DNA of 38,747 bases, from assembly GCA_016930645.1 (NCBI GenBank), contig JAFGGH010000042.1, positions 1 to 38,747 on the forward strand, written 5' to 3'. Shown piece after piece: positions 5,378 to 21,841 of this stretch. The position numbers and the translations under genes were made by a program. The stretch comes from Sedimentisphaerales bacterium. GTDB lineage: Bacteria; Planctomycetota; Phycisphaerae; Sedimentisphaerales; Anaerobacaceae. Every line of letters begins with the position of its first letter. The stretch's first letter is position 1. The notes under the pieces were generated by a model. The model was given only the letters and a program-made list of their open reading frames with translations, made no database searches and was not told the DNA's origin.

Positions 5378-5633
5378 TCTTTTAGGCTATCCCTAAAAAC
5401 TGGTGTTGCTTTTATTTTTTATCCCATCGCTTCCGTCTTCGCCCTGCGGGCTACGCCGGACAGGTGCGCTCGGGGCTTGTTGTGCGCTCGGGGTTTGTCC
5501 TGATTTATCGGGATCTGGAATTTTTATTGGTGTTGCTTTTATTTTTTATCCCATCGCTTCCGTCTTCGCCCTGCGGGCTACGCCGGACAGGTGCGCTCGG
5601 GGCTTGTACTTTGGGAATTTTTAGAGGTTGCCT
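5378..5633. repeat. Intergenic region with an 80-bp direct repeat
   Basis: Bases 5401-5480 recur unchanged at 5528-5607, 127 bp apart. Each copy includes the phrase GCGGGCTACGCCGGACAGG. Between the copies is a 16-nt near-palindrome, TCCTGATTTATCGGGA (5498-5513). Open frames that cross this stretch read through the repeat and are not supported as genes. Confidence 0.9.
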
Positions 5634-6855: not shown

Positions 6856-7086
6856 TCAGACATTGATAGCTTCCATTATTTTATACACTTCGGCTCCGCA
6901 CTTCATGCACCGCCATTTGCTTTGACTCTTGATTCTTCCTATATCAAGCACCCATAGTATTATCCATAATCCACAGAGGGGTGCTAATGCAAGAACCCAT
7001 CGTTTTGCCGTCACTCGGCGTACTGATACCTGCTTTAGACACTTGCCGCAATAACCGCTTGCTTCTTCGATACGTCTGCATAACAT
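6856..7086 (-). CDS. Small membrane protein with split zinc-ribbon cysteines
   Basis: This 76-residue protein has a CGKC pair near residue 13, one membrane segment (WVLALAPLCGLWIILWVL) and a CMKC pair near residue 61. The two pairs could come together as a zinc ribbon on the cytoplasmic side only if the hydrophobic stretch is a hairpin or is not fully membrane-spanning. AGAAGA lies directly before the ATG. I do not recognise a family. It follows the TGS GTPase with a 14-nt gap and may be its transcriptional passenger. Confidence 0.6.
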   Translation of the reverse strand: MLCRRIEEASGYCGKCLKQVSVRRVTAKRWVLALAPLCGLWIILWVLDIGRIKSQSKWRCMKCGAEVYKIMEAINV

Positions 7087-7100
7087 TTTCTTCTGACCTT

Positions 7101-8084
7101 TTATCCGAAGTGGAGTTCTACCACATCTTTGTCATTCAAAATATGTGTCTGCTGACAGTTCTGCCCGTCATACACCCCCATTCCCCAGATGCGTGCATTC
7201 CGCAGCTTATCAGCCAGTTCTTTGTGAATAGCCCGCGCCAAATCCAGCACAGTCGAACCCACGGGCAGCGTAAACGGGTCCTTCATATCAACCTTTTTCC
7301 CGGGCGGCTTTGAATAAACACGTATAATTTCCAGCTTTTCGAACAATCTTTTACCTAATCTGTCAATATCGTCAGCCGACCTGGTACAGACCTTGATGCA
7401 GTCAAACCGCCCTTTCAAAAGCTCCTGTACTTTTTCAAACGCGCTGTTTTCGGCTATGTCACTCTTGGTACAAACACAGAATACCTTCCTGCCCAACAAA
7501 TTGCCGCTATCATCCGTCGCAGGATTGTCTCTATCTATCAGCAGCCTGCGCGACTCGAGAAAATCCATCAATACACTCATCTGCTCTTCGACATCCTGCA
7601 ACAAATCTATAACCAAAACAATCAAATCGCAGTTGCGATACGTCCCCACCTGGCCGGGCGACACAAAATCAGCCGTTATAGGCGGCGTATCGACAAGCTG
7701 AATCTGGATGTCCTCATACTTCATCATTCCCGGCACGGGCGCACCGGTCGCGAATGGAAAATCGGCGATATTTACCTTTGCGTTGGTCAGCGCGCCGACT
7801 ATCGAGCTTTTCCCGCTGTTAGGCGCCCCGATAAGAGATATCTGCCCGGCGCCGCTGCGTTTGACATGAAACACATCGACATGCCTGGCTGCGCTTTTTT
7901 GGGTACCGGCTTCTTTGAGTTTGCTGAGCTTACGGCGCAAATCCGCTCGCATATGGTCGGTGCCCTTGTGCTTGGGTATCACCGCAAGCATCCGTTCCAT
8001 CGCGAGAATTTTCTCATCATTGGTACTCGCTTCGCGATACCACTGCTCAGCCTTGAAATATTCCGGTGTTAAATTAGCAGGCAA
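7101..8084 (-). CDS. Obg/DRG-type GTPase with TGS domain
   Basis: The 327-residue protein has a short helical N-terminus, a GTPase domain and a C-terminal TGS domain (about 260-327), the order of DRG-like and Obg-like GTPases that act on ribosomes or translation factors. Visible motifs are the P-loop GAPNSGKSS (86-94), the switch I region FPFATGAPVPG, the DTPP G3 motif (132-135; Pro replaces the usual Gly) and CTKSD as G4. The TGS part includes LPVGSTVLDLARAIHKEL and NDKDVVELHFG. The start is a TTG with AGGA 6 nt before it; no ATG is closer. Its exact cellular role is not known to me. A GxxExxY gene lies 30 bp upstream. Confidence 0.88.
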   Translation of the reverse strand: MPANLTPEYFKAEQWYREASTNDEKILAMERMLAVIPKHKGTDHMRADLRRKLSKLKEAGTQKSAARHVDVFHVKRSGAGQISLIGAPNSGKSSIVGALTNAKVNIADFPFATGAPVPGMMKYEDIQIQLVDTPPITADFVSPGQVGTYRNCDLIVLVIDLLQDVEEQMSVLMDFLESRRLLIDRDNPATDDSGNLLGRKVFCVCTKSDIAENSAFEKVQELLKGRFDCIKVCTRSADDIDRLGKRLFEKLEIIRVYSKPPGKKVDMKDPFTLPVGSTVLDLARAIHKELADKLRNARIWGMGVYDGQNCQQTHILNDKDVVELHFG

Positions 8085-8096
8085 TTTATATCCTAA

Positions 8097-8126
8097 CCAC
8101 TGATTACACTGATTTCACTGATTACT
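8097..8126. repeat. Three-word 9-nt repeat (AATCAGTG type)
   Basis: On the minus strand the stretch reads AATCAGTGA, AATCAGTGT, AATCAGTGG, three words with an exact 9-nt period. The TGA stop codon of the GxxExxY gene at 8115-8507 lies inside the first word. A related cluster in the opposite orientation lies at 8522-8545, on the other side of that gene. Confidence 0.9.
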
Positions 8127-8507
8127 ATTTATAAATCTTTTAATTTCGAGAGATTTTGCACCGAAATTCAAAAGCAAACCAACTTCCAAACCTGTTGCCT
8201 TAAGATAGTTAATAACCTGAGAATATTCAATTTCTGTGTTTTTCTTGACAGCTTTTAACTCAATTATAACTTTACCATCAATAATAAAATCACAAATAAA
8301 TTGTTTTGCAAGCCGTCCTTTATACAACACATCTATCTGCTTTTGCCGTTCATAATTTATATTTCTCAATTCAAACTCAATAGCAAGCGCCTCCTCATAC
8401 ACACTTTCCAGAAAACCGACGCCGAGCATTTTGTGTACTTCTATCGCTGCCCCGATTATGACTTCTGTTAATTCAGAATATAAATAGCTTTGCTTGAGCA
8501 TATTCAT
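8115..8507 (-). CDS. GxxExxY protein (PD-(D/E)XK-like), copy 1
   Basis: This 130-residue protein belongs to the GxxExxY family, named for G31-x2-E34-x2-Y37 in GFLESVYEEA. The family is thought to have a PD-(D/E)XK nuclease-like fold; the candidate active-site residues D73 (FICDF) and E83-L-K85 (IIELKAV) are present. Cellular role and substrate are unknown. The end of the gene runs into a repeat word that supplies its stop codon, and words flank it on both sides. It sits between leuB and the TGS GTPase on the same strand, with gaps of 47 and 30 bp. It is the closer relative of copy 2 (10570-10971). Confidence 0.92.
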   Translation of the reverse strand: MNMLKQSYLYSELTEVIIGAAIEVHKMLGVGFLESVYEEALAIEFELRNINYERQKQIDVLYKGRLAKQFICDFIIDGKVIIELKAVKKNTEIEYSQVINYLKATGLEVGLLLNFGAKSLEIKRFINSNQ

Positions 8508-8521
8508 CTTTTTTGTATATT

Positions 8522-8545
8522 CTGTGTAATCTGCGAAATCTGCGG
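8522..8545. repeat. Repeat words upstream of GxxExxY copy 1
   Basis: On the plus strand this reads TGTAATCTGCG then AAATCTGCGG. It is the inverted, diverged counterpart of the words at 8097-8126, so the GxxExxY gene lies between imperfect inverted repeats. leuB ends 10 bp further on. Confidence 0.8.
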
Positions 8546-8554
8546 TTTAAAAAA

Positions 8555-9643
8555 TTATTCTGCCACTTTGTTGGCAACTAAATCTCCTACTTCACTGGTC
8601 GAATATCCCATCTTGCCGGCCTGCATACTTTCCAGCTTCTCACTGGTAACATATTTTACCGCTTCTTCGACCTTGTCAGCCGCCTTCTCTTCACCAAGCG
8701 TCTGGAGCATCATCTGCATCGCGCATATCGCCGCCAGCGGATTGATTACTCCTTTGCCCGTATATTTCGGTGCGCTGCCGCCTATCGGCTCGAACATACT
8801 AACACCCTGGGGATTGATGTTCCCGCCTGCCGCGATTCCCATTCCGCCCTGTGTTATCGCGCCGAGGTCGGTAATAATGTCACCGAACATATTACCGGTA
8901 ACAATCACGTCGAACCATTCCGGATTCTTCACCATCCACATACAGGTCGCGTCAACGTGGTAATACTCCCGCTTGATATCCGGATATTCTTTTTGCCCCA
9001 TCTCGTGGAACGCTCTTTCCCACAAATCATAAACATAAGTCAGCACATTCGTCTTGCCGCAAAGAGCTAATGTATTTTCCTTGCCTACGCCGCGAGCCTT
9101 TTTGCCGTATTTCTTGGCATACTCGAACGCGTATTTCAAACACCTGTCAACCTGAAACCGGTTATAAACCGATGATTGTACCGCTACCTCGTTAGACGTA
9201 CCCTTCATCGTAAAGCCGCCCGTTCCGGTATATAAATCGCCGGTATTCTCACGTACCACGACATAATCGATTTCGGCAGGCCCTTTATCCTTCAGCGGAC
9301 AAGCCACTCCCGGATAGAGCTTCACAGGCCGAAGATTAATATACTGGTCAAGCTCGAATCGGGCCTTTAGCAAGATACCTTTTTCAAGAATACCCGGCTT
9401 GACATCGGGATGGCCGATTGCTCCCAGGAGTATCGAATCGAATTTGCGCAGCTCTTCTACAGCGCTATCCGGCAGAGTTTCGCCTGTTCTTTTATATCGC
9501 TCACCGCCGAAGTCATATTCGGTAAGCTCAACGCCGAAGCCGAATTTATCCTCCGCCGCCTTTAATACTTTTATCGCCTCGGCCGTAACCTCAGGACCGG
9601 TCCCGTCACCCGGTATCACCGCAATATTATACGTCTTACCCAT
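8555..9643 (-). CDS. leuB: 3-isopropylmalate dehydrogenase
   Basis: LeuB oxidises and decarboxylates 3-isopropylmalate with NAD+, the third step of leucine synthesis, in the cytosol. The 362-residue protein opens with IAVIPGDGTGPEV and has the substrate-binding series LKARFELDQYINLRPV, VVRENTGDLYTG and the metal-site region VTGNMFGDIITDLGA, then EPIGGSAPKYTGKG for the cofactor. Isocitrate or tartrate dehydrogenase relatives share these motifs, but the other leu genes in the same direction upstream settle the call. AAAGGA precedes the ATG by about 11 nt. An accessory gene and repeats now separate it from leuD. Confidence 0.92.
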   Translation of the reverse strand: MGKTYNIAVIPGDGTGPEVTAEAIKVLKAAEDKFGFGVELTEYDFGGERYKRTGETLPDSAVEELRKFDSILLGAIGHPDVKPGILEKGILLKARFELDQYINLRPVKLYPGVACPLKDKGPAEIDYVVVRENTGDLYTGTGGFTMKGTSNEVAVQSSVYNRFQVDRCLKYAFEYAKKYGKKARGVGKENTLALCGKTNVLTYVYDLWERAFHEMGQKEYPDIKREYYHVDATCMWMVKNPEWFDVIVTGNMFGDIITDLGAITQGGMGIAAGGNINPQGVSMFEPIGGSAPKYTGKGVINPLAAICAMQMMLQTLGEEKAADKVEEAVKYVTSEKLESMQAGKMGYSTSEVGDLVANKVAE

Positions 9644-9685
9644 TTATACTTGTCCTTTCAAACCACAGATTAAATTATAGTAAAT

Positions 9686-9753
9686 TTTTTAACCGCGGAT
9701 TAACAAAGAGTAAAATTGTTATTAACCGCGGATTTCGCGGATTTCCACGGATT
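9686..9753. repeat. AATCCGCG-type word island
   Basis: AACCGCGGATTA occurs at 9691-9702, and AACCGCGGATT, TCGCGGATT, TCCACGGATTA run in series at 9724-9753. On the minus strand they read AATCCGTGG, AAATCCGCG, AAATCCGCGG. The island begins about 3 nt after the TAA of the gene at 9756-10469 and spans most of the gap to leuB. Confidence 0.85.
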
Positions 9754-9755
9754 AT

Positions 9756-10469
9756 TTAAAGTAATTCTTCAATTAATTCACGTATCCCTTTTATCATTGC
9801 CCCGACATCTGAAATGTCGAACTTATCCCATTCAGCGTGCAAAGCATTATTCCTAACACCTGCAAATGATCGCACTCTTTTTGCTTTTACCTGAGTTAAT
9901 ATACCTGCTTGTGCAAGTTGATTTATTATATCATCAAGACCTTTTCCACTTGAGTTAATACTATTCTTTTTACAGATTTTCTTGATAGTGTCTTCAAGGA
10001 CGGCACTTGCCAGAACGGATGATTCTATCCTTTTACCTCCTTTGTGGTATTTTTCTGCATGGTCGAGGAAATCATCAAAAGTAGCGCCAGAGATAATGTA
10101 TTCCATCTTGCCAAGAAAGCCGCATTGCCAATCATTTTTTGCGCCCATTAACAAGCCGAGCATTAATACCAGAACTTTCGATGGAATACCTCTTTCTAAA
10201 TCTTCACTTGCCATAACTTTATCACATTCTTGAGCATAATGAGTTCCGTCCGGTGTTATAAAATGTATTAAACTTGTTGCCGAACTCAACCACGCACGAA
10301 ATTCCGGTATCTTTTTTTCAGGAACCCAATATTCATATTTATTATTGTCATATTCTGTAGTGCCATCCTGTCTTATGATGGAAACTGCCGGCCCTAATGT
10401 TCCGATTAACTTTTGGCCTTGATTGATTAGAGCTTCGAATCTATTGGTTATATCTTCTTTCATTCCCAT
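9756..10469 (-). CDS. Abi-C/DUF4145-like accessory protein
   Basis: From the ATG at 10469 the protein is about 237 residues; AAAGG lies 9 nt before it, whereas the longer frame starts with a GTG lacking a good site. The C-terminal 90 residues (SSVLASAVLEDTIKKIC, then GLDDIINQLAQAG, then RSFAGVRNNALHAEWD) resemble the helical domain shared by abortive-infection C-terminal and DUF4145 proteins. In those families the conserved RN and H-A residues may form a nuclease-like site. The N-terminal part is unassigned. The gene is visibly more AT-rich than the leu genes, suggesting acquisition. Its position between leuD and leuB and repeat words on both sides support insertion into an older operon. Confidence 0.65.
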   Translation of the reverse strand: MGMKEDITNRFEALINQGQKLIGTLGPAVSIIRQDGTTEYDNNKYEYWVPEKKIPEFRAWLSSATSLIHFITPDGTHYAQECDKVMASEDLERGIPSKVLVLMLGLLMGAKNDWQCGFLGKMEYIISGATFDDFLDHAEKYHKGGKRIESSVLASAVLEDTIKKICKKNSINSSGKGLDDIINQLAQAGILTQVKAKRVRSFAGVRNNALHAEWDKFDISDVGAMIKGIRELIEELL

Positions 10470-10526
10470 ATTGTGATACCTTTCCATCTCCTTATATAGA
10501 GATATAGGAAACACAATTTTTAGATC

Positions 10527-10569
10527 TTAATCCGCGTTAATCCGTGAAATCAGCGGTTAATATTTTTCC
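10527..10569. repeat. AATCCGCG-type word island
   Basis: On the plus strand TTAATCCGCG, TTAATCCGTG and AAATCAGCGG follow each other. Another word, TTAATCCGCGG (10570-10580), lies inside the end of the GxxExxY gene and supplies its TAA stop. Confidence 0.9.
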
Positions 10570-10971
10570 TTAATCCGCGGTTTTAGATCTTCTTTGCAGC
10601 ACTAATCTTTTGTATTTCAGCGATTGCTCTCCAAAATTTATCAGCAATCCCAGCTCCAGGCCGGTTGCTTTCAGATAATTCAAAAGCTGAGCCTCTTCAA
10701 CGCCTGTAATAGCTTTTATGGCTTTAAGCTCAACTAACACTTTGTGGTCCACAAGAAAATCGCATATAAATTGTTTTGCCAACAGCCCTTTGTAAATAAC
10801 GTTGATGTTTTTCTGCCTTTCGTATTGTACTTTGCGAAGATTAAATTCTATTGCTAAGGCTTCTTCGTAAACACTTTCAAGGAACCCACTGCCGAGAGTT
10901 CTGTGCACTTCCATCGCCGCACCTATAATTTCCCTCGTGATTTCACTGTGCATCAAATCCGATTCTGCCAT
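10570..10971 (-). CDS. GxxExxY protein (PD-(D/E)XK-like), copy 2
   Basis: A 133-residue relative of copy 1. The naming motif is G29-x2-E32-x2-Y35 (GFLESVYEEALAIEF, nearly identical to copy 1), and the nuclease-like residues are D71 (FICDF) and E81-L-K83 (VELKAIK). GAGAG precedes the ATG. The last residues (KTAD then stop) are encoded by a repeat word of the flanking island, so the natural C-terminus may have been replaced. It lies 64 bp after leuD in the same direction and before the Abi-C-like gene. Function is unknown. Confidence 0.92.
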   Translation of the reverse strand: MAESDLMHSEITREIIGAAMEVHRTLGSGFLESVYEEALAIEFNLRKVQYERQKNINVIYKGLLAKQFICDFLVDHKVLVELKAIKAITGVEEAQLLNYLKATGLELGLLINFGEQSLKYKRLVLQRRSKTAD

Positions 10972-10989
10972 TTTTCTCTCTTTTTATTA

Positions 10990-11048
10990 AAATCCGTGAT
11001 AATCCGCGTTAATCCGCGGTTCCTGACAAATCTTCTTAATCCGTGGTT
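10990..11048. repeat. AATCCGCG-type word island after leuD
   Basis: On the plus strand AAATCCGTGA, TAATCCGCGT and TAATCCGCGG follow each other (10990-11020), with a further TTAATCCGTGG at 11037-11047. The last word overlaps the leuD 3' end and contains its stop codon. Confidence 0.9.
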
Positions 11049-11521
11049 GCTTTTTTAATATGTTCTAAAAGCCCGCCATTATTTATTATTTCACGCGCGA
11101 AATCCGGCAGCGGCTCGAAGTTTATATCTTTGCCACTTGTAACATTCTTTATCAAGCCGTTTTCAAAATCGACCTCAATTTCATCGCCGTCGCTGATTTT
11201 ATCCACGTCAGGCGTTTCGATAATATAAAAGCCGTTATCAATCGCATTGCGATAAAATATCCGCGCAAACGACTTAGCAATTACGGTTGAAACATTCGCG
11301 CCTCTTATAGCCCAGACTGCGTGTTCTCTGCTCGAACCGCAGCCGAAATCCTCGCCTGCCACAATAATATCACCGGCCTGGCATTTTTTGACAAACTCGG
11401 CATCCAAATCTTCCATACAATGCTTCGCCAACTCCTGCTCGTCGTCGGTATTTAAGTACCGCGCCGGTATTATCTCATCGGTATTAATATGGTCTCTATC
11501 ATACTTATGTGCTTTTGCCAT
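11036..11521 (-). CDS. leuD: 3-isopropylmalate dehydratase small subunit
   Basis: LeuD forms the swivelling subunit of isopropylmalate isomerase, which with LeuC converts 2- to 3-isopropylmalate. The 161-residue length is that of the short, archaeal-like (HacB/type 2) branch and matches the 420-residue LeuC here. Motifs are [17 protein letters not shown] near the start and [15 protein letters not shown] (57-71), the substrate-binding loop. The final residues ATTD and the TAA come from a repeat word. LeuC lies 234 bp upstream, an unusually large gap filled with repeats. Confidence 0.93.
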
Positions 11522-11755
11522 CTGTATCTACCTCATTAGTTTATGACTCTAACTTTATAGTTTATCAGAATAACAGTGCATCAGGTAGTGGTTATCAGGC
11601 TATCAGAATATCAGGTTACATGTGCCATAGCCTGATTCCCTGTTAACCAGATGTCCTGCACCCTGATTACCTGTTTCACTGATTTCCTGTATTTATTTTA
11701 TAATCCGTGTAAATTCGTGAAAACCTGTCCTGAGCGAAGTCGAACGGATCCGTGG
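11522..11755. repeat. Repeat island between leuC and leuD
   Basis: No gene is seen. From 11598 ATCAGGCT, ATCAGAAT and ATCAGGTT follow each other with an 8-nt period; 11630-11695 has CCTGATTnCCTG words in the reverse sense. At 11702-11757 a third type, AATCCGTGT, AAATTCGTGA, AAA-TCCGTGG, is interrupted by about 25 nt (11724-11748) containing CCTGAGCGAAGTCGAACGG. The last word abuts the leuC stop codon. Confidence 0.85.
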
Positions 11756-13018
11756 TTACAGATAACTTCTCGGATCTGCCAATTTTCCTTCAATTGCGCT
11801 TGCCGCAGCCGTCGCTGGGCTGGTTAAATATACTTCGCTTTTCGGATGTCCCATTCGCCCGACAAAGTTACGATTGGTAGTGCTGACGCATTTTTCACCT
11901 TCAGCCAGGACGCCCATAAATCCGCCTAAGCACGCCCCGCACGTCGGCGCTGATATAACGCATCCGGCATCGTAGAATATATCGAACAGGCCTTCGTCCT
12001 TAGCCATTTTCCATATTGTCGGCGTCGCGGGCACTATAAGTGTCCGTATCGCTACCTTTTTGCCTTTTAATATATCCGCGGCAATTCTCAAATCTTCAAT
12101 CCTGCCGTTGGTACAGCTACCGATATACGCCTGGTCCATATCTTTTCCGGCGCACTTGGAAATCGGTACGCCGTTACTCGGCAGATGCGGCATCGCCACC
12201 ATCGGCTCTAACTTCGAGCAGTCTATCTCTATCGTCCGGCAATATTCGGCGTCGGCATCTGACTCGAACACCTCGTAATCCGTTTTACCTTTAAGGCGAC
12301 CGTCGAGATATTCCTTTGTAATATCATCAAAGCCCATTATCCCGTTCTTGCCGCCTGCTTCGATTGCCATATTCGTTATTGTCATCCGAGCTTCCATACT
12401 CATATCAGCCAATGCAGGCCCGGTAAATTCCATCGCCTTATAGAGTGCGCCATCTGTACCTATGAGCCTTATAGCTTCAAGGATAACGTCCTTACTATAA
12501 ACGCCTTTGCCGAGCGAGCCGTTCAATACGAACTTCATAGATTCGGGCACTTTGAACCACAGCTTGCCTGTCGCTATCGCCGCCGCCAAATCCGTCGAAC
12601 CGATACCGGTACTGAAGGCGCCGAACGCGCCGTAAGTACAGGTATGCGAATCACCTCCTACTATAACCTCGCCGGGCCGGATATGTCCCTGCTCCGGCAA
12701 TAACGCGTGACAGACGCCGGCCTGGCCGATTTTATAATAGTATCTGATATTGTGTTTTCTTGCCCATTTATCTAAGCGCTTATGAAGCGCTGCGCTTTGA
12801 ATATCTTTGGCAGGCTGAAAATGGTCCGGTGTTACCACGATTTTCTCAGTATCGAAAACCGTGTCGATCTTCTTATCTTCGAGCATACTTATCGCAGGCG
12901 GAGTCGTTACATCGTGACACATTATCACATCTATTTCAGCGTCAACCAACTGCCCTGCCTTGACCGTCTCTTTACCTGCCGCTTTGGCCAATATCTTTTC
13001 TGTTATTGTACTACCCAT
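11756..13018 (-). CDS. leuC: 3-isopropylmalate dehydratase large subunit
   Basis: LeuC carries the [4Fe-4S] cluster of isopropylmalate isomerase. The 420-residue protein belongs to the shorter HacA-like branch. Cluster cysteines are C302 (SCTNGR) and C360/C363 ([10 protein letters not shown]); the aconitase signature [15 protein letters not shown] is at 121-135. HacA homoaconitase of lysine synthesis has the same form, but the adjacent leuA, leuD and leuB support leucine synthesis. It follows leuA by 80 bp; that gap contains AATTAACC-type words. Confidence 0.93.
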
Positions 13019-13061
13019 ATTCTATTCCTTGTATTATTTAGTCCCGTCACTTGAGTACGGG

Positions 13062-13104
13062 ATTAATTAACGCAATTAACCAATTAACCACTTACCAATT
13101 AACT
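13062..13104. repeat. AATTAACC word island
   Basis: GATTAATTAA, GCAATTAACC, AATTAACC, ACTTACC and AATTAACT follow each other between leuA and leuC. The TAA stop codon of leuA (13099-13101) is inside the last word. Confidence 0.85.
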
Positions 13105-14643
13105 TTTCTTTACCGCTTCGGTCCTATTGAGCGCGTCCACATAAGCCTTGGCACTTGCCTCGATAATATCCGTACTCAGGCCTCTGCCGATAAATATCCT
13201 GCCGTTATCACGAATCTTTACCGTCGCTTCGCCGAGCGCCTCTTTGCCGCTGGTAACGGCGCGTATAGAATAATTCTCCAGTTTCGGCGATAGCCCCGTC
13301 GCCTCGCGTATCGCCTCATAGGCCGCATCGACAGGCCCATCACCACACGCAGCAGCCTGTTTATTTTCGCCCCTTACAACCATCTTTACACTTGCCGTCG
13401 GCAGTGTACCCGTCCCGCAGGCCACGTGCAAATACTCAAGCTTAAATACATTCTCTACCGCGTAAATCTCATCACTGATTATAGCGGCAAGGTCCTCATC
13501 GAAAACTTCGTGCTTCTTGTCGGCAATTTCGATGAACCGTTTATACGTCTTATCCAGTTCAATCTTATTGAGCTTATGCCCAAGCTCTTCGAGCCGGTGC
13601 TTCAAGCCGTGCCTGCCCGTCCTTGCTGTCAATACGACCCTGGTTTTGGGCGAACCGACATCTTCAGGCTTCATAATTTCATACGTCTCACGTTTCTTAA
13701 GCACTCCATCAACATGGATACCCGAACTATGCGCAAAGGCGTTATCACCAACTACCGCCTTATTGACAGGCACCGGCATCCCAAGCATATCAGCTACCAT
13801 CCTGCTGGTACGGTAAAACTCCTCAGTCCGGATTTTAGTTTCAATCCCGAAGAAATCCTTTCTCGTCTTTATCGCCATTATCACCTCTTCGATAGCCGCG
13901 TTTCCCGCACGCTCACCGATACCGTTTATCGTGCCCTCTATCTGCCTGGCGCCGTTTTTAACACCAGCTAAGGAGTTCGCCACTGCCATACCCAGATCAT
14001 TATGACAGTGCACACTGATTACAGCTTTATCGATATTCGGCACATTGGCCCTGATGTCGGCTATCAGCTCGCCGAAAAGCTGTGGTATCGAATAGCCGGT
14101 CGTATCGGGAATATTCAGAGTCGTAGCTCCGGCATCGACTACCGCTTCGAGTATCTCATAAAGAAACTCGCGATTGGCCCTGCCGGAGTCCTCTGCGTAA
14201 AACTCGACATCATCGGTATATCTTAGCGCTCGTTTCACAGCTTTGACCGCCATTTTTATAATATTGGCCTTCTTGGCGCCGATAGTCCTGCCGTATTTGG
14301 CATCACCGAACTTGCCTCGAATATGAATATCCGAGACGCCGATACCGGTATGTATCCGCGAGCGTTTGGCCTTGGCGACAGCCTTGCCGCAGATATCGAT
14401 ATCCTCATCCCTTGCCCGCGTCAGCCCGCAGATAGTAACAGTCCTGATTTTTTCGCATATCAGCTTGACCGCCCGGAAATCCTCAGGCGATGACGCCGGA
14501 AAGCCGGCCTCGATTATATCTACATTCAACCTGGCAAGCTGACGGGCCAGTTCGAGCTTTTCCCTCGCACCTAACCGTGTACCAGCGGCTTGCTCACCAT
14601 CCCGCAGCGTCGTATCGAATATTATCACCTTGTCTTTATTCAT
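13099..14643 (-). CDS. leuA: 2-isopropylmalate synthase
   Basis: LeuA condenses acetyl-CoA with 2-oxoisovalerate, the first step of leucine synthesis. The 514-residue protein has a TIM-barrel catalytic domain opening with [13 protein letters not shown] (D10 as metal ligand) and the metal histidines H212 and H214 in [11 protein letters not shown], then [12 protein letters not shown]. Residues from about 385 onward form the LeuA dimer/allosteric domain that usually binds leucine ([20 protein letters not shown]). GGAG lies about 9 nt before the ATG. It is the first gene of the leu cluster, with a 280-bp leader behind a tRNA gene. Citramalate and homocitrate synthases are less likely given the neighbours. 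Confidence 0.94.
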
Positions 14644-14924
14644 TGTCTTATCTCCAAAATCCGCTCTCAGCGGTTTTACTGTATTCTATCATCTGTCTTA
14701 AACTCATCAGGATAACCCTTATTGCGCATAAATTCCACGTTTTTTGTGAAAAATAAGGTCTGTATTAGGATGGGTAGTGTTTCTATTCTGCGCCTACTGG
14801 CGCAGGAGCAAGCTAAGACCCAAAAGGGCCTGAATAATAGAACGTGATGGGTAGTTTCTTACCATTACAGCCAAATTATACTGATTCTAACCTCAATTGC
14901 AAGAAGAATTTTCGAAATAAATAA
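14644..14924. promoter_or_regulatory. leuA leader region with hairpin element 14769-14855
   Basis: The region upstream of leuA holds a 10-bp direct repeat, GATGGGTAGT, at 14769-14778 and 14846-14855. Between the copies, TTCTATT (14781-14787) and AATAGAA (14836-14842) are inverted. Inside are a 7-bp hairpin, CTGCGCC-TACT-GGCGCAG (14788-14805), and a weaker one, GACCC-AAAA-GGGCC (14817-14830). It could be a structured leader RNA of leuA or a small insertion with target duplication. No T-box sequence or leucine-rich leader peptide was recognised. Confidence 0.4.
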
Positions 14925-14998
14925 TGGGCGATATTGGACTCGAACCAACGACCTCCTGCGTGTCGAGCAGGCGCTCTATCCATCTGAGCTAATCGCCC
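14925..14998 (-). tRNA. tRNA-Val(GAC)
   Basis: The minus strand folds into a full cloverleaf: acceptor GGGCGAT/ATCGCCC, D arm GCTC/GAGC, anticodon stem CCTGC/GCAGG, T arm GTTGG/CCAAT with loop TTCGAGT and discriminator A. The seven-base anticodon loop is TCGACAC, giving anticodon GAC for valine. Position 33 is C where U is nearly universal. The 3' CCA is not encoded. It lies upstream of leuA in the same direction. Confidence 0.88.
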
Positions 14999-15071
14999 TA
15001 ATTCTAAAAGCAAGAGAGTACCCAAATCAGCGGATAAAATCAAGAGATTTCTTCGGAGCATTTTCACAGAA

Positions 15072-15120
15072 AGCCGCCGTTACCTCCTTCGCTGAAGCTT
15101 CGGAGGACAGGCCGGCGGCT
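15072..15120. repeat. Compound hairpin downstream of aroK
   Basis: AGCCGCCG (15072-15079) pairs with CGGCGGCT (15113-15120), and inside it CCTCC (15083-15087) pairs with GGAGG (15102-15106). It starts 2 nt after the aroK stop. The minus strand gives only TTTC after the stem, so it is at best a weak terminator. The internal GGACAGG is shared with the 80-bp repeat at 5401. Confidence 0.6.
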
Positions 15121-15121
15121 G

Positions 15122-15622
15122 CTAAACTTTATTTATAATTTCTTCCACGATTTGCTCGTGCGTTTTGCCCGCGCAATCGATGGTAACTTCAGCGTACTTT
15201 TCGTATAAAGGCTGGCGCTTCTCGTACAGGCTTTTTAAGGTCTGGCCTTTCTCCATTACTACACCGCGGGTATATAAATCCCTTACCCTCTGCTCGATAA
15301 TCTCATAAGGTAAATCCAAGTGAACGATAGTGCCGATTTTCTTTAGATAGCTCATCGCCTTTTCGCTATAGACAACACTGCCGCCTGTTGCGATAACAGC
15401 GTTTTCCAAGTCTATGCAGATTACATATTCTTCCTCGATTCGGCAAAATTCATCCAGTCCTTTTTCATCGATTATTTGCTGCAAGGTTTTACCTTCTGCA
15501 GCCTGGATAAATACATCATTATCGAGAAATCTTTTACCGAGCGCCTTTGCCAAAAGCACCCCGACGGTGCTCTTGCCGCTGCCGCACATGCCGATTAAAA
15601 CTACGTTCGATTTGCCTGTCAT
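15122..15622 (-). CDS. aroK: Shikimate kinase
   Basis: The enzyme phosphorylates shikimate with ATP in the chorismate pathway. From the ATG at 15622 it has 166 residues, the usual length. Visible are the P-loop GMCGSGKST, the shikimate-binding DNDVFIQ with RIEEEYV, and the ATGGSVVY loop. The later ATG is preferred to one 13 codons upstream because AGGA lies about 10 nt before it and it starts 2 nt past the stop of the PHP gene, with which it probably forms an operon. It could be called aroL equally well. Confidence 0.9.
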   Translation of the reverse strand: MTGKSNVVLIGMCGSGKSTVGVLLAKALGKRFLDNDVFIQAAEGKTLQQIIDEKGLDEFCRIEEEYVICIDLENAVIATGGSVVYSEKAMSYLKKIGTIVHLDLPYEIIEQRVRDLYTRGVVMEKGQTLKSLYEKRQPLYEKYAEVTIDCAGKTHEQIVEEIINKV

Positions 15623-15624
15623 TG

Positions 15625-16377
15625 TTAAATCAATCCTATCGATTCGGGCGTCTCTAAGCAACCTTCAGGCAGTTTTTTCAATATGTTCGATACAAATTCA
15701 TTACCGCCGATTTCATTTGGGAAATGCGAATCCGAGCCGTAAATCAGCTTCACGCCCGCATCGAGAGCAATCCGGTAAATCTCGTGCCACCTGTTATGAT
15801 AGTCCTGCCTGACCATATTACGGTCGTGTTCGTTAATTTCCCAGAGTATGTTGTTTGCAGCGGCAACTTCAGCGGCTTCTGTGAGAATTTCGAGCACATC
15901 ATCGAAATACAAATCCATATCGATAGAGGTTGCGACCATTCTGCCGGGATGGGCGAGAGCATTTATCTTTTTATTATTGAGCACGCCGAGCATAGTGCTC
16001 CGCCAGCGTTTTAATAATTCTTTGGGACTAAGCGGATTATCCTCGATTTTTCTCGGATAAAAACCGTCACCGGGGATATAGTGAATCGCTGCCAAACAAT
16101 AATCCAGGCCTCTGGGTATCGGCGCCGCCAGAGTACCATCACTGTGCAGTCCTGATACATCCATTTCGGCACCAATTAAAACACGGCAATTAGTTTTGTA
16201 AGCCGCAACTTCTTCCCGGATACGTCTTGGCGTATCGATTTCCTTCGGACTGTATATATGGTCTGCGATGCAGATAGTATTAAGACCAAGCTCATCGGCG
16301 CATTTGAGTATCGCATCGATTGTCATCGTCTCAGCGTGCCCGCAATAAACAGTATGTATATGCAAATCGTAATTCAT
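15625..16377 (-). CDS. PHP-domain metal-dependent phosphoesterase
   Basis: This is a PHP-fold hydrolase of about 250 residues, like histidinol phosphatase HisK and related phosphoesterases. Metal-site motifs are DLHIHTVYCGH at the start, IADHI near residue 40, GAEMDV, the AHPGRM loop and the closing YGSDSHFPNEIG. The ATG at 16377 has AAGGA 6 nt before it; the earlier start runs into repeat words. The substrate cannot be fixed: a histidinol-phosphatase role is possible but no his genes are here. It is translationally adjacent to aroK. Confidence 0.85.
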   Translation of the reverse strand: MNYDLHIHTVYCGHAETMTIDAILKCADELGLNTICIADHIYSPKEIDTPRRIREEVAAYKTNCRVLIGAEMDVSGLHSDGTLAAPIPRGLDYCLAAIHYIPGDGFYPRKIEDNPLSPKELLKRWRSTMLGVLNNKKINALAHPGRMVATSIDMDLYFDDVLEILTEAAEVAAANNILWEINEHDRNMVRQDYHNRWHEIYRIALDAGVKLIYGSDSHFPNEIGGNEFVSNILKKLPEGCLETPESIGLI

Positions 16378-16389
16378 TTTTTCCTTTGC

Positions 16390-16448
16390 CACAGAGGTCA
16401 CAGAGAACACAGAGATATAATAATGTCATTCTGAGCGTAGCGAAGAAT
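16390..16448. repeat. Three-word CACAGAG repeat and CTGAGCG element
   Basis: CACAGAGGT, CACAGAGAA and CACAGAGAT (16390-16416) follow each other with an exact 9-nt period in the 5' region of the PHP gene. At 16428-16448 comes ATTCTGAGCGTAGCGAAGAA, whose ends are inverted (ATTCT/AGAAT) and whose core CTGAGCGnAG is shared with the element at 11724-11748. Confidence 0.85.
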
Positions 16449-16521
16449 CTATTTCTATACGCTAAACGCTGTACGCATAAAAGAATCCTAACATATAATT
16501 GTTTAGATTTCATTAGCGCAT

Positions 16522-16550
16522 AAAAAAAGCCGGGCAAACACGGCCCGGCT
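16522..16550 (-). terminator. Intrinsic terminator of the 16672-17925 gene
   Basis: On the minus strand AGCCGGGC pairs with GCCCGGCT around a 7-nt loop (stems 16543-16550 and 16528-16535), followed by a T7 run. It lies about 120 bp downstream of the stop codon. Nearly the same sequence recurs at 18592-18617. Confidence 0.8.
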
Positions 16551-16671
16551 TAAACTTCATTCGTTTATCGGTTTCGCTGTTCGTAACGTTTTTCGTCTTA
16601 CGGTTGCGCAAAAACTACGTTTAACATTTTACGCAAACGATACGAGCTGCGCAAACGAAAACGAACCGATT

Positions 16672-17925
16672 CTAATAGATCTCATCGAACTCTGCTCCTA
16701 TAGTACCTGCAACAACGCCTACCTTGCCGCGGGGCATCTGTCTTATTTCAACATTCAGAACAGACTGTCCCATTGTACCGTCTTTCATTTTGACAACACA
16801 CGTTGCTTCCACAAAGGTTCCGGGGTCGTCTAAATGATTCACACCCTGGATACTAACCAGTTCCGAAGGTTCGTGGACCTGATAAGTTAACTGCAATTTT
16901 TCAAGGCTGTCGCCGGCAGCTAAGGGCCTGATTTTCTTAACGTCATCCCAATTTCGGTCAATTACTGCCTGCCAGTATTTTTCTATAACCTTCTTACATG
17001 CGTCATAGGTGCTTACTTGTCCAACTAGTATTCCATAATTGGGGTCTCTATCAAGGAGGTCACGCAGCATTCTGCAATCGACAACCTGCGTTCCATCCGG
17101 AATATCAAAATCAAAGAAACCTTCCGGTATTTCCCGGTCGTATTCTATAGATGTGTATTCGAAGTGAGGAACGCCCTCGTAACCCTCGCTGTACCATACA
17201 CTTCCACGAACCGGCAATTTGGTTTCTACATCAAACTGCAGCTTCCAGTAAGGTGCGGTGTTCACAGGCGGGCCAATAAACGTAACAAAGACGCTGTCTC
17301 TGCCGGTTTCTTCGTCCCTGCCGTACCTCTCCTTCCAGTTCCGCCCCATTTCCTTCAACTGCCTGAACAAATCACCCGTCAGAAAAGGATTGCATCCTCT
17401 GTTCAGCCCCTCTGTTATATAAAGCACATCCCATTTCGGATGACGCGTATAAACATAGGTGATGTTCTCCCGCTCATTAGCAAGGGAAATGTGATTGTCC
17501 CCTTCCACAAGCTTGAAATTGCCGGAGACAGAACCATCCATACTATGAGGCATAGCCCAGATTTCAAAAGTCTCCCTGGGTCTGTCCGGGTACTTGGCAT
17601 ACCCGGCGAGGTGAACAACTTTCATACCCTCCAATACCTCGATGGTCTGTTCAATCGCCCAGGCAGGTGTGATAGACTTGTCTATTAACACTATCGAAAG
17701 AGCCACAGCTATAAGAACAACGGCTGCTGTAGCGAATTTTGATATTCTGTTTTTCATAATTATTCTCCATATATTCGGCTGGGAAGCGCCCAGTCCTGTT
17801 CGTTTAGATTTCGATTGTTCGTCGAGTATTTTCCTGAAAGCGGCTCGTTCATATTCTGTAACACTATCTGGAATAATGCCGTCCGCTTTTAACAGCTCTT
17901 CAGATAATTTCCTGTCATTATCCAT
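16672..17925 (-). CDS. Membrane-anchored partner of ECF sigma factor
   Basis: The 417-residue protein overlaps the end of the ECF sigma gene by 8 nt, which points to a regulatory partner, probably an anti-sigma factor. The N-terminal 60 residues are cytosolic and charged. One membrane segment (ATAAVVLIAVALSIVLI) follows the juxtamembrane run IWRIIMKNRISKFA, which is shared with the protein at 19857-20279. The remaining 320 residues face outward and contain a region resembling LolA/LppX-like lipoprotein carriers (HLAGYAKYPDRPRETFEIWA; YWKLQFDVETKLPVRG). A C-terminal NTF2-like part may include YWQAVIDRNWDDV. The binding partner outside the cytoplasm is unknown. Confidence 0.7.
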   Translation of the reverse strand: MDNDRKLSEELLKADGIIPDSVTEYERAAFRKILDEQSKSKRTGLGASQPNIWRIIMKNRISKFATAAVVLIAVALSIVLIDKSITPAWAIEQTIEVLEGMKVVHLAGYAKYPDRPRETFEIWAMPHSMDGSVSGNFKLVEGDNHISLANERENITYVYTRHPKWDVLYITEGLNRGCNPFLTGDLFRQLKEMGRNWKERYGRDEETGRDSVFVTFIGPPVNTAPYWKLQFDVETKLPVRGSVWYSEGYEGVPHFEYTSIEYDREIPEGFFDFDIPDGTQVVDCRMLRDLLDRDPNYGILVGQVSTYDACKKVIEKYWQAVIDRNWDDVKKIRPLAAGDSLEKLQLTYQVHEPSELVSIQGVNHLDDPGTFVEATCVVKMKDGTMGQSVLNVEIRQMPRGKVGVVAGTIGAEFDEIY

Positions 17926-18457
17926 TTTGTCTTTCCATTTCTTTGCGAAGAGATTGCTTTGCGTAAAATATTCGCGACCTGACAGTACCAATACTGCAAC
18001 CGGTAACGCCGGCTATCGACTCGTAAGACATCCGTTCAACGAATGACAACGTCAGTACTTCTTTGTGATAAGGCTTAAGTTCATCCAGGGCCCTGTGCAA
18101 CTTCTTTGCATCATCGGCGTTAAAAACAGGTTCATCGCTACCCGATACGGGAAGTTCATTTTCTTGGGGCAGACTGACAAACCTTTCCTTGCGCTTGAAT
18201 CCGCTATAAACCTTATTCCTTGCGATACGGTAAAGCCAGACGGCAAAAGCCTTGGTATCCTTTAGCTTATGTATCTTCTTAAAAACGGTCAGCCAGATGT
18301 CCTGGAGCATATCGTCAGCATTGGTACCTCTGCCGTCCATCCGCCTGACATAATACTTCAGCCGTGGCTGGTATATCTCGAATAGCGCCTCGAAAGCCGC
18401 TCTGTCACCATTTTGGCTGCGAAGCACTATCTCTTCTACCTGCTTATCAAAATCCAT
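17918..18457 (-). CDS. ECF sigma factor, module 1
   Basis: This is a sigma-70 family extracytoplasmic-function sigma factor of about 179 residues. Region 2 runs through FEALFEIYQPRLKYYVRRM, ADDMLQDIWLTVFKKIHKL and FAVWLYRIARNKVYSGFKR. Region 4 has LDELKPYHKEVLTLSFVERMSYESIAGVTGC and IGTVRSRIFYAKQSLRKE. The ATG at 18457 has AAGG about 8 nt before it. It overlaps the next gene in the sequence ATGGATAA, so the two are translationally coupled. Promoter targets are unknown. Confidence 0.93.
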   Translation of the reverse strand: MDFDKQVEEIVLRSQNGDRAAFEALFEIYQPRLKYYVRRMDGRGTNADDMLQDIWLTVFKKIHKLKDTKAFAVWLYRIARNKVYSGFKRKERFVSLPQENELPVSGSDEPVFNADDAKKLHRALDELKPYHKEVLTLSFVERMSYESIAGVTGCSIGTVRSRIFYAKQSLRKEMERQNG

Positions 18458-18591
18458 ATATGTACCTTGAAATCTTTCCCGTATCACTGATTAAAGATAC
18501 ATCCCAGCCCAATTAGTTCAAAAAATAATTTGACATTTTTCAATTTTTACCGATTTCAAGCCAGTAAAAGCCTAAAAAGCCCTCTGCGCAT

Positions 18592-18617
18592 AAAAAAACC
18601 GGGCAAACCCGGCCCGG
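18592..18617 (-). terminator. Intrinsic terminator of sigma module 2
   Basis: On the minus strand CCGGGC (18612-18617) pairs with GCCCGG (18599-18604) and is followed by T7. It lies about 30 bp past the stop of the 18644-19843 gene. It and the terminator at 16522-16550 share the flanking GCGCATAAAAAAA and most of the stem-loop. Confidence 0.8.
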
Positions 18618-18643
18618 CTTGGTTTTTAGGGCGTTATCAAAAA

Positions 18644-19843
18644 TCACTTCACTTTGAACTCATATACATAAGTCTCATCTTTCATCAAATCCGGCTTTTT
18701 GCAGCGAAGGACAAAGCCGTCAGCTTTCTTCTCATATTCAAAATCCTCGCCGCTGAATAAATCCTTCGGCATACCGGCAGGTAACTCTTCAGGAAGATGT
18801 CCGGTTTGTGTTTTGATAATATAAATTTCCAGGGCGGTTCTAAGGGCGTTCGAGAAAGTTCTGATTTTGATGTCATGGTTATAAATCCTCTGGATGGCAG
18901 GAGCCAAAACCATAGTCAGAATTGTGTCAGGATTTTCCTCGGATTTCTGCTTAATACTGTCGTTGATTTCCGCAAGCTTCTTGTAAGCCTGCTCGTAAGG
19001 AAGCTCAACCGCCGAATATATCGCCTCCCAGCATTCATTGAAATAGGCCAGATTACGCCGGCAGAACTGCTCATCGGCGGCAAGAACAGCTTTTCGTATG
19101 TCCGCCTGCGCCTCGTCTTTTATGGTAATTAAAGACTGATTATCAATGAAAGGAAGTAATTCCTTAACTCTCTGCGGCTGAAAATACATACCCATAACTT
19201 CCTGCTCGGTAACCAGAAAGTATTTTATCGGCTTTCTTTTATTGTCGAGTTCACTTAACTGAGCTTTGAGATATTTCAAAGTCTCCAAGTCCACTTGCTG
19301 AGACGAAAGAATATCTTCAATACATTCATCTGCAAGCGTCTCTACGGTAACTCCAACGAGAAAGTTTATGAGAGTCGGTCCCTCGGCGACATGCAGTGCT
19401 ATCCTTCGTGCAGTTAAGCATCGCTCAATTGCAAAATTGTAATCTCCTTCCGCCAGGCTTTTTCTCGCATCAGCCAGAATTAACTTAACGATATTCCTGA
19501 TTTGAGACAGATACGGCATTTGCAAATCCAGGCCTTCGGAATATCTTAAACCCCAATCGCATTTATCAAGCTCACTTGCTGTTACCACAAGGTAAATTGC
19601 AGCGCTGCAATTTTCGATATGTTTGAGAATTTGCGGATTCGGTTCAATTTTCCCTGCAGCCAGATCACTTATCATATCTCCCATGGTATCATCGGTTTTC
19701 TCATAGAGGAGAAAGGCCTGGTAATATAACAGTGCTGCGTTATCAGGGTCAGGCGGATACGCCAAAACCGAAAAGTCTAATAAAAATAAGGTTACCAAAG
19801 CACAAATAACAATCCTAAAACAATTATTCACATACGTTTTCAT
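18644..19843 (-). CDS. Exported helical protein of sigma module 2
   Basis: The 399-residue protein has a signal peptide (hydrophobic core IVICALVTLFLLDF, cleavage likely near LAYP). The mature part is almost all helical, starting PPDPDNAALLYYQAFLLYE and including LAEGDYNFAIERCLTARRIALHVAEGP, which resembles TPR-like pairs. I cannot name a family. It begins 13 nt after the membrane regulator of module 2 and is probably co-transcribed with its sigma factor, so it may be an input or output of that envelope response. A strong terminator follows. Confidence 0.7.
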   Translation of the reverse strand: MKTYVNNCFRIVICALVTLFLLDFSVLAYPPDPDNAALLYYQAFLLYEKTDDTMGDMISDLAAGKIEPNPQILKHIENCSAAIYLVVTASELDKCDWGLRYSEGLDLQMPYLSQIRNIVKLILADARKSLAEGDYNFAIERCLTARRIALHVAEGPTLINFLVGVTVETLADECIEDILSSQQVDLETLKYLKAQLSELDNKRKPIKYFLVTEQEVMGMYFQPQRVKELLPFIDNQSLITIKDEAQADIRKAVLAADEQFCRRNLAYFNECWEAIYSAVELPYEQAYKKLAEINDSIKQKSEENPDTILTMVLAPAIQRIYNHDIKIRTFSNALRTALEIYIIKTQTGHLPEELPAGMPKDLFSGEDFEYEKKADGFVLRCKKPDLMKDETYVYEFKVK

Positions 19844-19856
19844 GATAAGCTCCTTT

Positions 19857-20279
19857 TCAATTATTCAAATCTTTATATAAACCATTCAGTGATAAACTAC
19901 CGTACTGCGGCCCCAGCAGTTCCAGGGATTTATCAAGCTGCTCTTCAACAGCCTCCATCCCGCCTCGGCGAAAAGCAGCATTAATTGAAACCATTTTTGT
20001 CAAATCAGCAGGTGATTTGACAATCCGTGCAATATTGATATTAGGCTGTTCGTCTTTGTTGTTATGTAAAAGTAAAACACAAACCGCGATTATCAACACC
20101 GCAGCCGCGGCCAGTTTGGTCATCTTGCTTCGCATAATTACTTGCCAGACATTCAGCTTTTGCTCAGTAATTTCCCTGCTGAACTGTTGAGACTTTTGTT
20201 CGGCAATTTCGGCAATGTCATCAGGCAAAGGTTCGTTTGCCAAATTACACAGCAATTTATCTAATTTTTCATTATCCAT
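19857..20279 (-). CDS. Small membrane-anchored anti-sigma candidate
   Basis: The 140-residue protein has a cytosolic acidic N-terminus (MDNEKLDKLLCNLANEPLPD), then VWQVIMRSKMTKLA directly before one membrane segment (AAAVLIIAVCVLLLH), then about 70 residues outside. The juxtamembrane run matches that of the module 1 regulator. Its ATG lies inside the last codons of the sigma gene (ATGGATAA overlap, 8 nt), as in module 1. No zinc anti-sigma (HxxxCxxC) motif is seen. The role as anti-sigma factor is inferred from position and topology. Confidence 0.7.
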   Translation of the reverse strand: MDNEKLDKLLCNLANEPLPDDIAEIAEQKSQQFSREITEQKLNVWQVIMRSKMTKLAAAAVLIIAVCVLLLHNNKDEQPNINIARIVKSPADLTKMVSINAAFRRGGMEAVEEQLDKSLELLGPQYGSLSLNGLYKDLNN

Positions 20280-20763
20280 TGCTCAATCTCCTTTTAAGAG
20301 CAGCTAACGCCTTTGATACATTTGACCTTGCGGCAGCTTCAGTGCAGCTTAAAACACAAGCAATATCCTCATAACTTTTCTGGCCGAGGTATCTCATAAC
20401 AATTGCCTTTGATTGCTTTTCTGGCAGCAAAGCGACAGCACGCCTGATTTGTTCGAATCCTTCGATATCACCAACTTCTTGATTCGTTTTCTCAGGCAGG
20501 CGATGTTCATTAAGCTGTCCGTCTCTGCCTATCCTGTTTCGCCAGGCCTTTGAGTTGGCAGACATCGCTATCCGGTAGATATATCCGCCCGCCGAATCAG
20601 AGCTGAGCTTTTCAACATTTTGCCACATACCCAAAAGCGCATACTGCATCGCTTCGCCGAAAAGCTCCCTGTCGCCCGTTAGTTTCCAAAGAACCGAAGC
20701 CAGAAAGCTGTTGTAACGGGTCTTGACTTCGTCAAATATCTGCAACCTTTGCCGATGTTCCAT
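20272..20763 (-). CDS. ECF-like sigma factor, module 2
   Basis: A 163-residue sigma-70 family protein. Region 2 includes FLASVLWKLTGDRELFGEAMQYALLGMW and GGYIYRIAMSANSKAWRNR; region 4 includes LLPEKQSKAIVMRYLGQKSYEDIACVLSC and AAARSNVSKALAALKRRL. Region 2 is less typical than in module 1. The gene is followed by an overlapping anti-sigma candidate and an exported protein, so it starts a three-gene unit. No promoter could be assigned with confidence in the 170 bp upstream. Confidence 0.85.
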   Translation of the reverse strand: MEHRQRLQIFDEVKTRYNSFLASVLWKLTGDRELFGEAMQYALLGMWQNVEKLSSDSAGGYIYRIAMSANSKAWRNRIGRDGQLNEHRLPEKTNQEVGDIEGFEQIRRAVALLPEKQSKAIVMRYLGQKSYEDIACVLSCTEAAARSNVSKALAALKRRLSNG

Positions 20764-20933
20764 TTACGAATTACCGCCTACTGTGGATGAACATGTTCAA
20801 AATCCATAATATAATAACCGCCTTGGACCTTATCTGTGTAAAATAATTTTTGTAGATTTGCAAATTTAAGAAAATCACTGACCAAAGCTGTCTTTGCCGG
20901 TGATTTTGAATCTTGATATTTATATTGTTGAGC

Positions 20934-21827
20934 TTAGACAGTAAACTTTTTGCCGGTCAGGCGCTCGTAGCATTCGATATACTTGGCGCTGGTCTTTTCG
21001 ACAATATCGACAGGCAGTACCACGCCCGGACCGGATTTGTCGAAATTGATGCCCTCAAGATAATTGCGAACGAACTGCTTATCGAAGCTCTCCTGGTCGC
21101 GCCCCGGCTCGTATTTATCCCCAGGCCAGAACCGCGATGAATCAGGCGTTAATACTTCATCAATCAAAATAATCCTGCCGTCCACAATCCCCCACTCAAA
21201 TTTTGTATCGGAAAGGATTATACCCCTGCTCTCAGCATATTCACTTGCCTTTTTAAATATCCACATACTCTTATCACGGACGTACCTGGCTTTATCTTTG
21301 CCGATTATCTCAGCGCACCTTTCAAAGCTGATATTCTCATCATGCGCGCCTCGTTCGGCTTTGGTGGCGGGTGTGAAAATCAGTTTGGGCAGCTTGTCGC
21401 ACTGCTTTAGTCCCTTGGGCAGTTTCTGGCCGCAAACGGTGCCGCTTTGCTTATATTCCTTCCAGCCGGAACCGGCGAGGTATCCACGAATCACACATTC
21501 GACCGGCAGGACATTGACCTTTTTAACAAGCATACTTCTGCCTTCGAGCTGGTCAGGATGCTCGCAGAACGGTTCCGGATAGTCGTTTACATCATCGCTG
21601 ATTAAGTGGTGTTCGATTGAATCGCCCAAAAAATCGAACCAGAATCGGGAAATTTTTGTAAGCACGATGCCTTTGTAAGGGATACCGTTAGCCATAACCA
21701 CATCGAATGCGCTTAGTCTGTCGGTGGCAACTATAAGCAGCTTGTCGCCCAAATCGTAAATATCTCTTACTTTACCGCGGGCGCATTCTATCCTTTCGAT
21801 ACTTGTCTGCAGAATCGTCTCAGCCAT
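20934..21827 (-). CDS. purC: SAICAR synthase (phosphoribosylaminoimidazole-succinocarboxamide synthase)
   Basis: PurC joins aspartate to CAIR with ATP in purine synthesis, in the cytosol. The protein has about 297 residues, the longer single-domain form. Family motifs seen are GKVRDIYDLGDKLLIVATDRLSAFD, the central ECVIRGYLAGSGWKEY, FTPATKAERGAHDENISF and LIDEVLTPDSSRFWP. The ATG at 21827 is chosen over one six codons earlier because AGGGGA precedes it by about 6 nt; the earlier ATG merely overlaps the stop of the HD gene. It is the only purine gene in the window. Confidence 0.95.
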   Translation of the reverse strand: MAETILQTSIERIECARGKVRDIYDLGDKLLIVATDRLSAFDVVMANGIPYKGIVLTKISRFWFDFLGDSIEHHLISDDVNDYPEPFCEHPDQLEGRSMLVKKVNVLPVECVIRGYLAGSGWKEYKQSGTVCGQKLPKGLKQCDKLPKLIFTPATKAERGAHDENISFERCAEIIGKDKARYVRDKSMWIFKKASEYAESRGIILSDTKFEWGIVDGRIILIDEVLTPDSSRFWPGDKYEPGRDQESFDKQFVRNYLEGINFDKSGPGVVLPVDIVEKTSAKYIECYERLTGKKFTV

Positions 21828-21841
21828 AATATTCCCCTGAA

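Follow-up and report, generated by a model that had tools for sequence, protein, structure and literature searches.

GxxExxY nuclease genes between inverted arrays of 9–10 nt words: probable small inserted elements in a planctomycete and its relatives

Described systems close to the GxxExxY locus

The 23S rRNA IVS has a size of ~430 nt, carries one small ORF and possesses ~30-bp inverted-repeat ends, which is the same layout as that of the GxxExxY elements described here. The IVS of Coxiella burnetii comprises 428 nt, with 28-bp inverted ends and one small S23 ORF (PMC4990558). These elements have been termed selfish, and an old hypothesis is that the ORF serves mobility. However, the IVS is located in rRNA and is cut by RNase III, whereas the GxxExxY elements are located between protein genes, encode a nuclease, and have ends made of tandem words with no sign of pairing at the RNA level.

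IS and MITE elements are also short; the inverted repeats that bound them accompany the encoded enzyme, and solo copies are abundant. In these respects the GxxExxY elements resemble them. However, no recognised transposase was found inside the GxxExxY elements, which contained only GxxExxY and variable cargo, no target duplication was detected, and the 9–10 nt words arrayed at the ends vary among elements. Target duplication is not made by all IS families. The repeats of REP/REPIN-RAYT systems are short, also occur as inverted pairs and are scattered between genes, as the words are here; in contrast, the word arrays are not hairpins, and hairpin repeats distinct from them accompany the RAYT-like genes that were read in this genome. 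The encoded protein has the fold and the D...ExK...QxxxY active site in common with the PD-(D/E)XK nucleases Cas4, RecB and lambda exonuclease, but it is minimal (120–130 aa), has a GxxExxY helix and carries no fused helicase; it showed no CRISPR linkage here.

GxxExxY genes were carried by 45 of 60 related genomes, with hundreds of loci across phyla. Yet in the papers searched, all available without subscription, queries on GxxExxY, PF13366 and TIGR04256/TIGR02436 elements found none described, and GxxExxY was only mentioned in passing. Twelve word sequences, searched in the same papers, were found in no relevant context, and one word by chance only. An earlier sequence-only reading of this DNA had known of no described GxxExxY element of such a kind. 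Likewise, we could not find a description of the element family in this literature; parts of its layout are common to IVS and IS/MITE elements.

GxxExxY elements in the window and their nuclease

The window (the whole 38,747-nt stretch of Sedimentisphaerales DNA that was analysed) contained three elements. Only the first had been noticed before; the other two, the second genes found in some elements, the covariation of word families with the nuclease and the four-helix-bundle genes with the same architecture are additions of the present analysis.

Element 1 has a size of ~450 bp, in the order of word array, nuclease gene and inverted word array. The stop codon of its gene, GxxExxY copy 1 (TIGR04256/PF13366 PDDEXK_3; 130 aa; 8115–8507, minus strand), is inside the 3′ arm (8095–8124, minus strand), which comprises three 9-nt words of the form AATCAGTG(A/T/G) running outward from the gene, with GGTT at its outer end on the minus strand. 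The words are AATCAGTGA, AATCAGTGT and AATCAGTGG (8097–8123, minus strand). The 5′ arm (8518–8547, plus strand) runs outward through AATCTGCGA and AATCTGCGG (within 8526–8545, plus strand) and one decayed word, and lies 7 nt from the leuB stop codon. The positions and strands that the sequence-only reading had given for the words agreed with the sequence. Its description of them as related but not the same also held, with 22 of 30 positions identical between the arms; what it had left out was the decayed word on the right, so that there are three 9-nt words on each side. The element is flanked upstream by the host gene leuB (3-isopropylmalate dehydrogenase; 8555–9643, minus strand) and downstream by a TGS-domain GTPase gene (7101–8084, minus strand), which immediately follows leuB in relatives.

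The 22 identities were obtained without gaps between AACCACTGATTACACTGATTTCACTGATTA (8095–8124, plus strand) and AACCGCAGATTTCGCAGATTACACAGAATA (8518–8547, minus strand). In gene orientation the latter is the 5′ arm and the former the reverse complement of the 3′ arm, the two being aligned from a common outer AACC. A match of at least 22/30 was reached by 0.6% of control genes (n = 494). Plain local alignment of the arms gave scores of 15–17, insignificant alone; the case for element 1 rests on the family, its own arms being too diverged for this method.

Element 2 (9720–11046) is located between leuD and leuB, in the order of array, GxxExxY, array, 252-aa ORF and inverted array. The first array (10987–11046, plus strand) lies at the 3′ end of leuD and provides the last leuD codons (TTD-stop). 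GxxExxY copy 2 (133 aa; 10570–10971, minus strand) is followed by a middle array (10528–10562, plus strand) that is direct, i.e., oriented as the first one. The second gene (252 aa; 9756–10514, minus strand) had no Pfam match, and a similar-looking ORF occupied the same position at another locus (L122:3177–3890). The terminal arm (9720–9754, minus strand) was 86% complementary over 35 nt to the middle array.

Element 3 (22657–24378) comprises an FRG gene and GxxExxY enclosed by ATCCTGT arrays. Its first array (24185–24378, plus strand; ATCCTGTC words) is inverted relative to the terminal arm (22657–22691, minus strand; ATCCTGTTAATCCTGTTATCCCGTC words). Between them are the companion gene (23148–24056, minus strand), whose FRG-domain product matched the candidate defence family PDC-S15 (6e-55), and GxxExxY copy 3 (127 aa; 22708–23091, minus strand).

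The profile scores of copy 1 were above the curated cut-offs (TIGR04256, 144 bits vs. 35; PF13366, 137.5 vs. 22). It carries D73, E83-x-K85 and Q97-x3-Y101; in an alignment of 49 GxxExxY proteins, E34, D73, K85, Q97 and Y101 were invariant and E83 was present in at least 90%. A search of the PDB by sequence with copy 1 matched no solved relative. With the predicted structure (pLDDT 92), the best Foldseek match was Cas4 SSO0001 (8e-5), and LHK-Exo was matched at 1.6e-3 (TMq 0.54); the model was also like MGME1 and lambda exonuclease. Because of the conserved residues and the structural likeness of the model, we read GxxExxY as a minimal RecB/Cas4-type PD-(D/E)XK nuclease with an intact D-ExK-QxxxY site and predicted activity.

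Inverted arms, word families and empty sites in other genomes

The sequence-only reading had compared the facing words to the terminal repeats of a small element carrying the nuclease gene, with inverted clusters commoner beside GxxExxY than beside other genes and empty sites in relatives as its checks. Both checks came out in its favour. Inverted arms with a score of at least 24 were found at 55% of GxxExxY genes with flanks (n = 94), compared with 3.3% of controls >400 bp away, 4.9% of small controls and 10.6% of mismatched up/down pairs. In a stricter element test among related planctomycete genomes, an inverted array closed 62 of 91 GxxExxY genes vs. 5 of 298 controls, the control gene sets being simple longest-ORF picks made with no trained gene caller. 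The 62 closed elements comprised 37 with the gene alone and 25 with a second gene; 37 had an adjacent inverted array, 19 a direct and then a distal inverted array, and six a distal inverted array only. Direct flank similarity, observed in 37% of GxxExxY genes, was largely explained by two-gene elements of the form [W>]GxxExxY[W>]ORF2[<W], where W is a word array. In a second set from many phyla (83 genes), 69% had inverted arms vs. 12% of mismatched up/down pairs; this contig scan used a closer set of 15 proteins as query, the 49-protein alignment being too diverse.

Different word families flanked the eight GxxExxY genes of the own genome, and for most of the genes both flanks held words (ACCACAGAGGCACAGAG, GCAGAGAACGCAAAGAACGC, AACCACGAATGAACACGAAT, ACACGAAAACACAAAACC, AATCTGTG, ATCCTGTT and others). 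The words vary between copies, yet they match at both ends of one copy. A periodic flank was found in 70% of GxxExxY genes vs. 3.8% of control windows, and the period was 9–10 nt in 87 of 97 periodic flanks. Arm similarity was correlated with protein similarity (Mantel r 0.417, 0/500 permutations), also between different phyla (r 0.274 vs. a permuted spread of 0.028, 0/1000). Two loci in unlike contexts (L148 and L149) carry different second genes, and the outer arm end is where their DNA similarity begins. The family spans many bacterial phyla with repeated words differing by copy; word family and nuclease stay associated from genome to genome and between phyla, and the second gene is exchangeable.

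The leuB–GTPase junction was conserved without GxxExxY in at least 14 relatives (gaps of 13–250 nt), and one further genome (G009) likewise had GxxExxY there. In two loci (L374 and L382) this junction contained another dispersed word type (AAATCCGAAATCCGAAAC...) with no gene inside. Further empty sites were found in congeneric or confamilial genomes. The gatA–gatB site was occupied in G036 and G050 and empty in G046, G054 (same genus as G036), G058 and G042; at the empty sites the two genes almost touch, and the arrays, that is, both arms, were missing together with the gene. For the metG slot, G036 holds the element, and G046, G042 and G058 have neither gene nor arms. At the argF–rdgB slot, G036 and G058 have GxxExxY, whereas G046 lacks it together with its arms; in G054 and G050 (L353 and L349) a DNA methyltransferase-like gene was found where other genomes hold GxxExxY, which suggests a shared insertion hot spot. 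After leuD, GxxExxY was present in seven genomes, and in six of them the arm provides the last leuD residues (TTD, TAD or ATD) and the stop; many relatives had nothing there, and two had a four-helix-bundle gene. Insertion points in the family often coincide exactly with a core gene's 3′ end. These comparisons are between species, the nearest being ~76–78% identical, so the junctions are not placed exactly, and host gene names other than leuB, leuC, leuD and GTPase are our own sequence reading. Like the gene and inverted terminal repeats of an IS, the GxxExxY gene and its two arms occur, or are missing, together, and the arms are locus-matched inverted arrays of 9–10 nt words. Carriage by phages or plasmids was rejected, with matches in 0 of 50,697 phages, eight of 72,556 plasmids and one viral contig.

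Explanations for the arrays and a proposed mechanism

Our main reading, to which we give a probability of about 0.6, is that copy 1 represents a small element that was inserted, one of a wide family whose members insert between genes and have the arrays as their ends; these ends would be processed by the nuclease. It is quite likely that the elements are, or formerly were, mobile as units. Several results are against the main reading: arms like these also flank four-helix-bundle genes, where the GxxExxY nuclease is absent, 22 of the 91 GxxExxY genes showed no array, most arrays of one word family are solo and one genome has arrays but no GxxExxY match (see below for both), and the target duplication test gave no signal (mean common outer word 3.77 vs. 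3.50 ± 0.19 permuted, 19/200).

The solo arrays favour an explanation that we consider unlikely, in which the arrays are an independent, host REP-like family of dispersed repeats and GxxExxY genes were merely trapped between, or recombined into, its copies. The 2.18-Mb assembly contained 72 pairs AATCNGYG-N(1-2)-AATCNGYG vs. 0 for the reversed pattern, and in the own-genome stretches read, 53 of 61 AATCNGYG-family clusters were >1.5 kb from any GxxExxY or four-helix-bundle gene. Since these clusters stand apart from such genes, the word alone does not mark a GxxExxY gene; the locus-matched inverted pair does. Similarly, 1056 CACNGA triple arrays were found in the 60 genomes vs. 14 for the reversed control. 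In favour of the main reading, their number per genome was correlated with that of GxxExxY genes (rho 0.64, P 3e-8), yet one genome (G016) had 49 arrays and no GxxExxY match; together with the 53 solo clusters, this indicates that arrays persist or spread without GxxExxY. However, a REP-like origin is at odds with word families that differ among the copies of one genome and match at both ends of each, with words that follow the protein between phyla, and with empty gatA–gatB and leuB–GTPase sites that hold no arrays of the GxxExxY kind.

An IVS-like RNA element is also improbable; here the arms would pair in the transcript, RNase III would excise the element as in the 23S rRNA IVS, and any mobility would go via RNA. 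The size and layout agree with the Coxiella IVS (PMC4990558), and PF05635 genes (23S rRNA IVP, four-helix bundle; the S23/IVP family) had inverted word arms in 74% of cases (n = 27) vs. 5% of mismatched pairs, with words shorter and more varied than those of GxxExxY. GxxExxY genes were mostly co-directional with their neighbours (80 of 92 upstream vs. a 75% background), which would also fit. However, the G-U wobble bias that an RNA stem would predict was not seen between the complementary arms on the sense strand (102 vs. 118 changes, P 0.31). The arms are tandem words with a period of 9–10 nt rather than unique stems, and the sites are between protein genes: element 1 lies between leuB and the GTPase gene, not in an rRNA helix, and an Rfam search of window positions 7000–25000 gave only a tRNA and no rRNA family match. 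Separately, at loci L288–L317, PF05635 genes were found between inverted arrays of 7–8 nt words that were very diverse (GCGTATT, GTGAAGC, TAGTATT, ACAGAAA, and others).

Second genes, when present, follow the layout [W>]nuclease[W>]cargo[<W]. They included FRG (also PDC-S15), a UDG-superfamily protein and DUF5677, weak matches only to SIR2-like and HEPN_AbiU2 proteins, and many genes without any match. The resemblance of several to known or candidate defence genes is a lead from sequence similarity. This grammar, the exchange of second genes and the presence of other genes in the same slots would agree with cassette capture. Under that explanation a recombinase of host or foreign origin would use the arrays as its recombination sites, and GxxExxY would be just one of the cargo genes, beside the four-helix bundle, FRG, SIR2-like, HEPN-like and methyltransferase types. 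Cassette capture too seems improbable to us, given that the word family is tied to the nuclease and that the sole candidate recombinase examined, Y1/RAYT, has its own palindromes. Chance similarity of A+T-rich intergenic words could be entertained for short words and for the diverged arms of copy 1, but it is refuted by the nine AATCNGYG pairs in the window vs. 0 in 100 shuffles and by all of the population tests.

For the reading of the family as inserted elements, we propose that the words, one per helical turn, form the element ends and would be bound by the element's own PD-(D/E)XK nuclease; this spacing fits repeated binding on one DNA face. That the nuclease acts on its own arrays is conceivable, at slightly less than even odds. 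Either the nuclease by itself would process the ends, or replication or recombination enzymes of the host would assist it, and joining would leave no target duplication. Slippage, and conversion from one arm to the other, may keep the words of an element alike, and solo arrays may be relics or non-autonomous copies moved in trans. The lack of a detected target duplication and the end-processing type of nuclease suggest an insertion that is repair- or replication-coupled rather than DDE transposition. Only tentatively do we speculate on a new kind of mobile element, in which a minimal Cas4-like nuclease mobilises itself and exchangeable defence-type cargo via inverted, element-specific, helically phased arrays of 9–10 nt words. 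Four-helix-bundle IVS proteins would be the basis of a sister class, and the two would together lie behind much of the repeated intergenic sequence in many bacterial phyla.

Mobility of the elements, if real, would explain a large class of "hypothetical" nuclease and four-helix-bundle genes and a considerable share of intergenic repeats; it would also make the second genes candidates for new defence systems and render the spread of IVS elements, an old question, testable outside rRNA. At one locus (L164:1287–3964), hsdM-like and KilA-N-like genes adjoin GxxExxY, and one word array is repeated between successive genes.

The window also contained a Y1 (RAYT-like) transposase ORF (30893–31342, plus strand) with palindromic REP-type repeats at 30803–30868 and 31403–31468. 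Y1_Tnp was matched nine times in the genome, in most of the cases read by a gene with its own hairpin repeats. At locus L051 a Y1 gene was located between two AATCCGTG arrays; the RAYT/Y1 transposase as mobiliser, suggested by this locus, was rejected, as the Y1 genes here carry their own REP-type palindromes. Three direct repeats were observed elsewhere in the window: one of 80 nt (5401–5480 and 5528–5607; 100% identical, period 127), one of 40 nt (24728–24767 and 27751–27790; 90% identical, ~3 kb apart) and one of 47 nt (35615–35661 and 36669–36715; 89% identical, ~1 kb apart).
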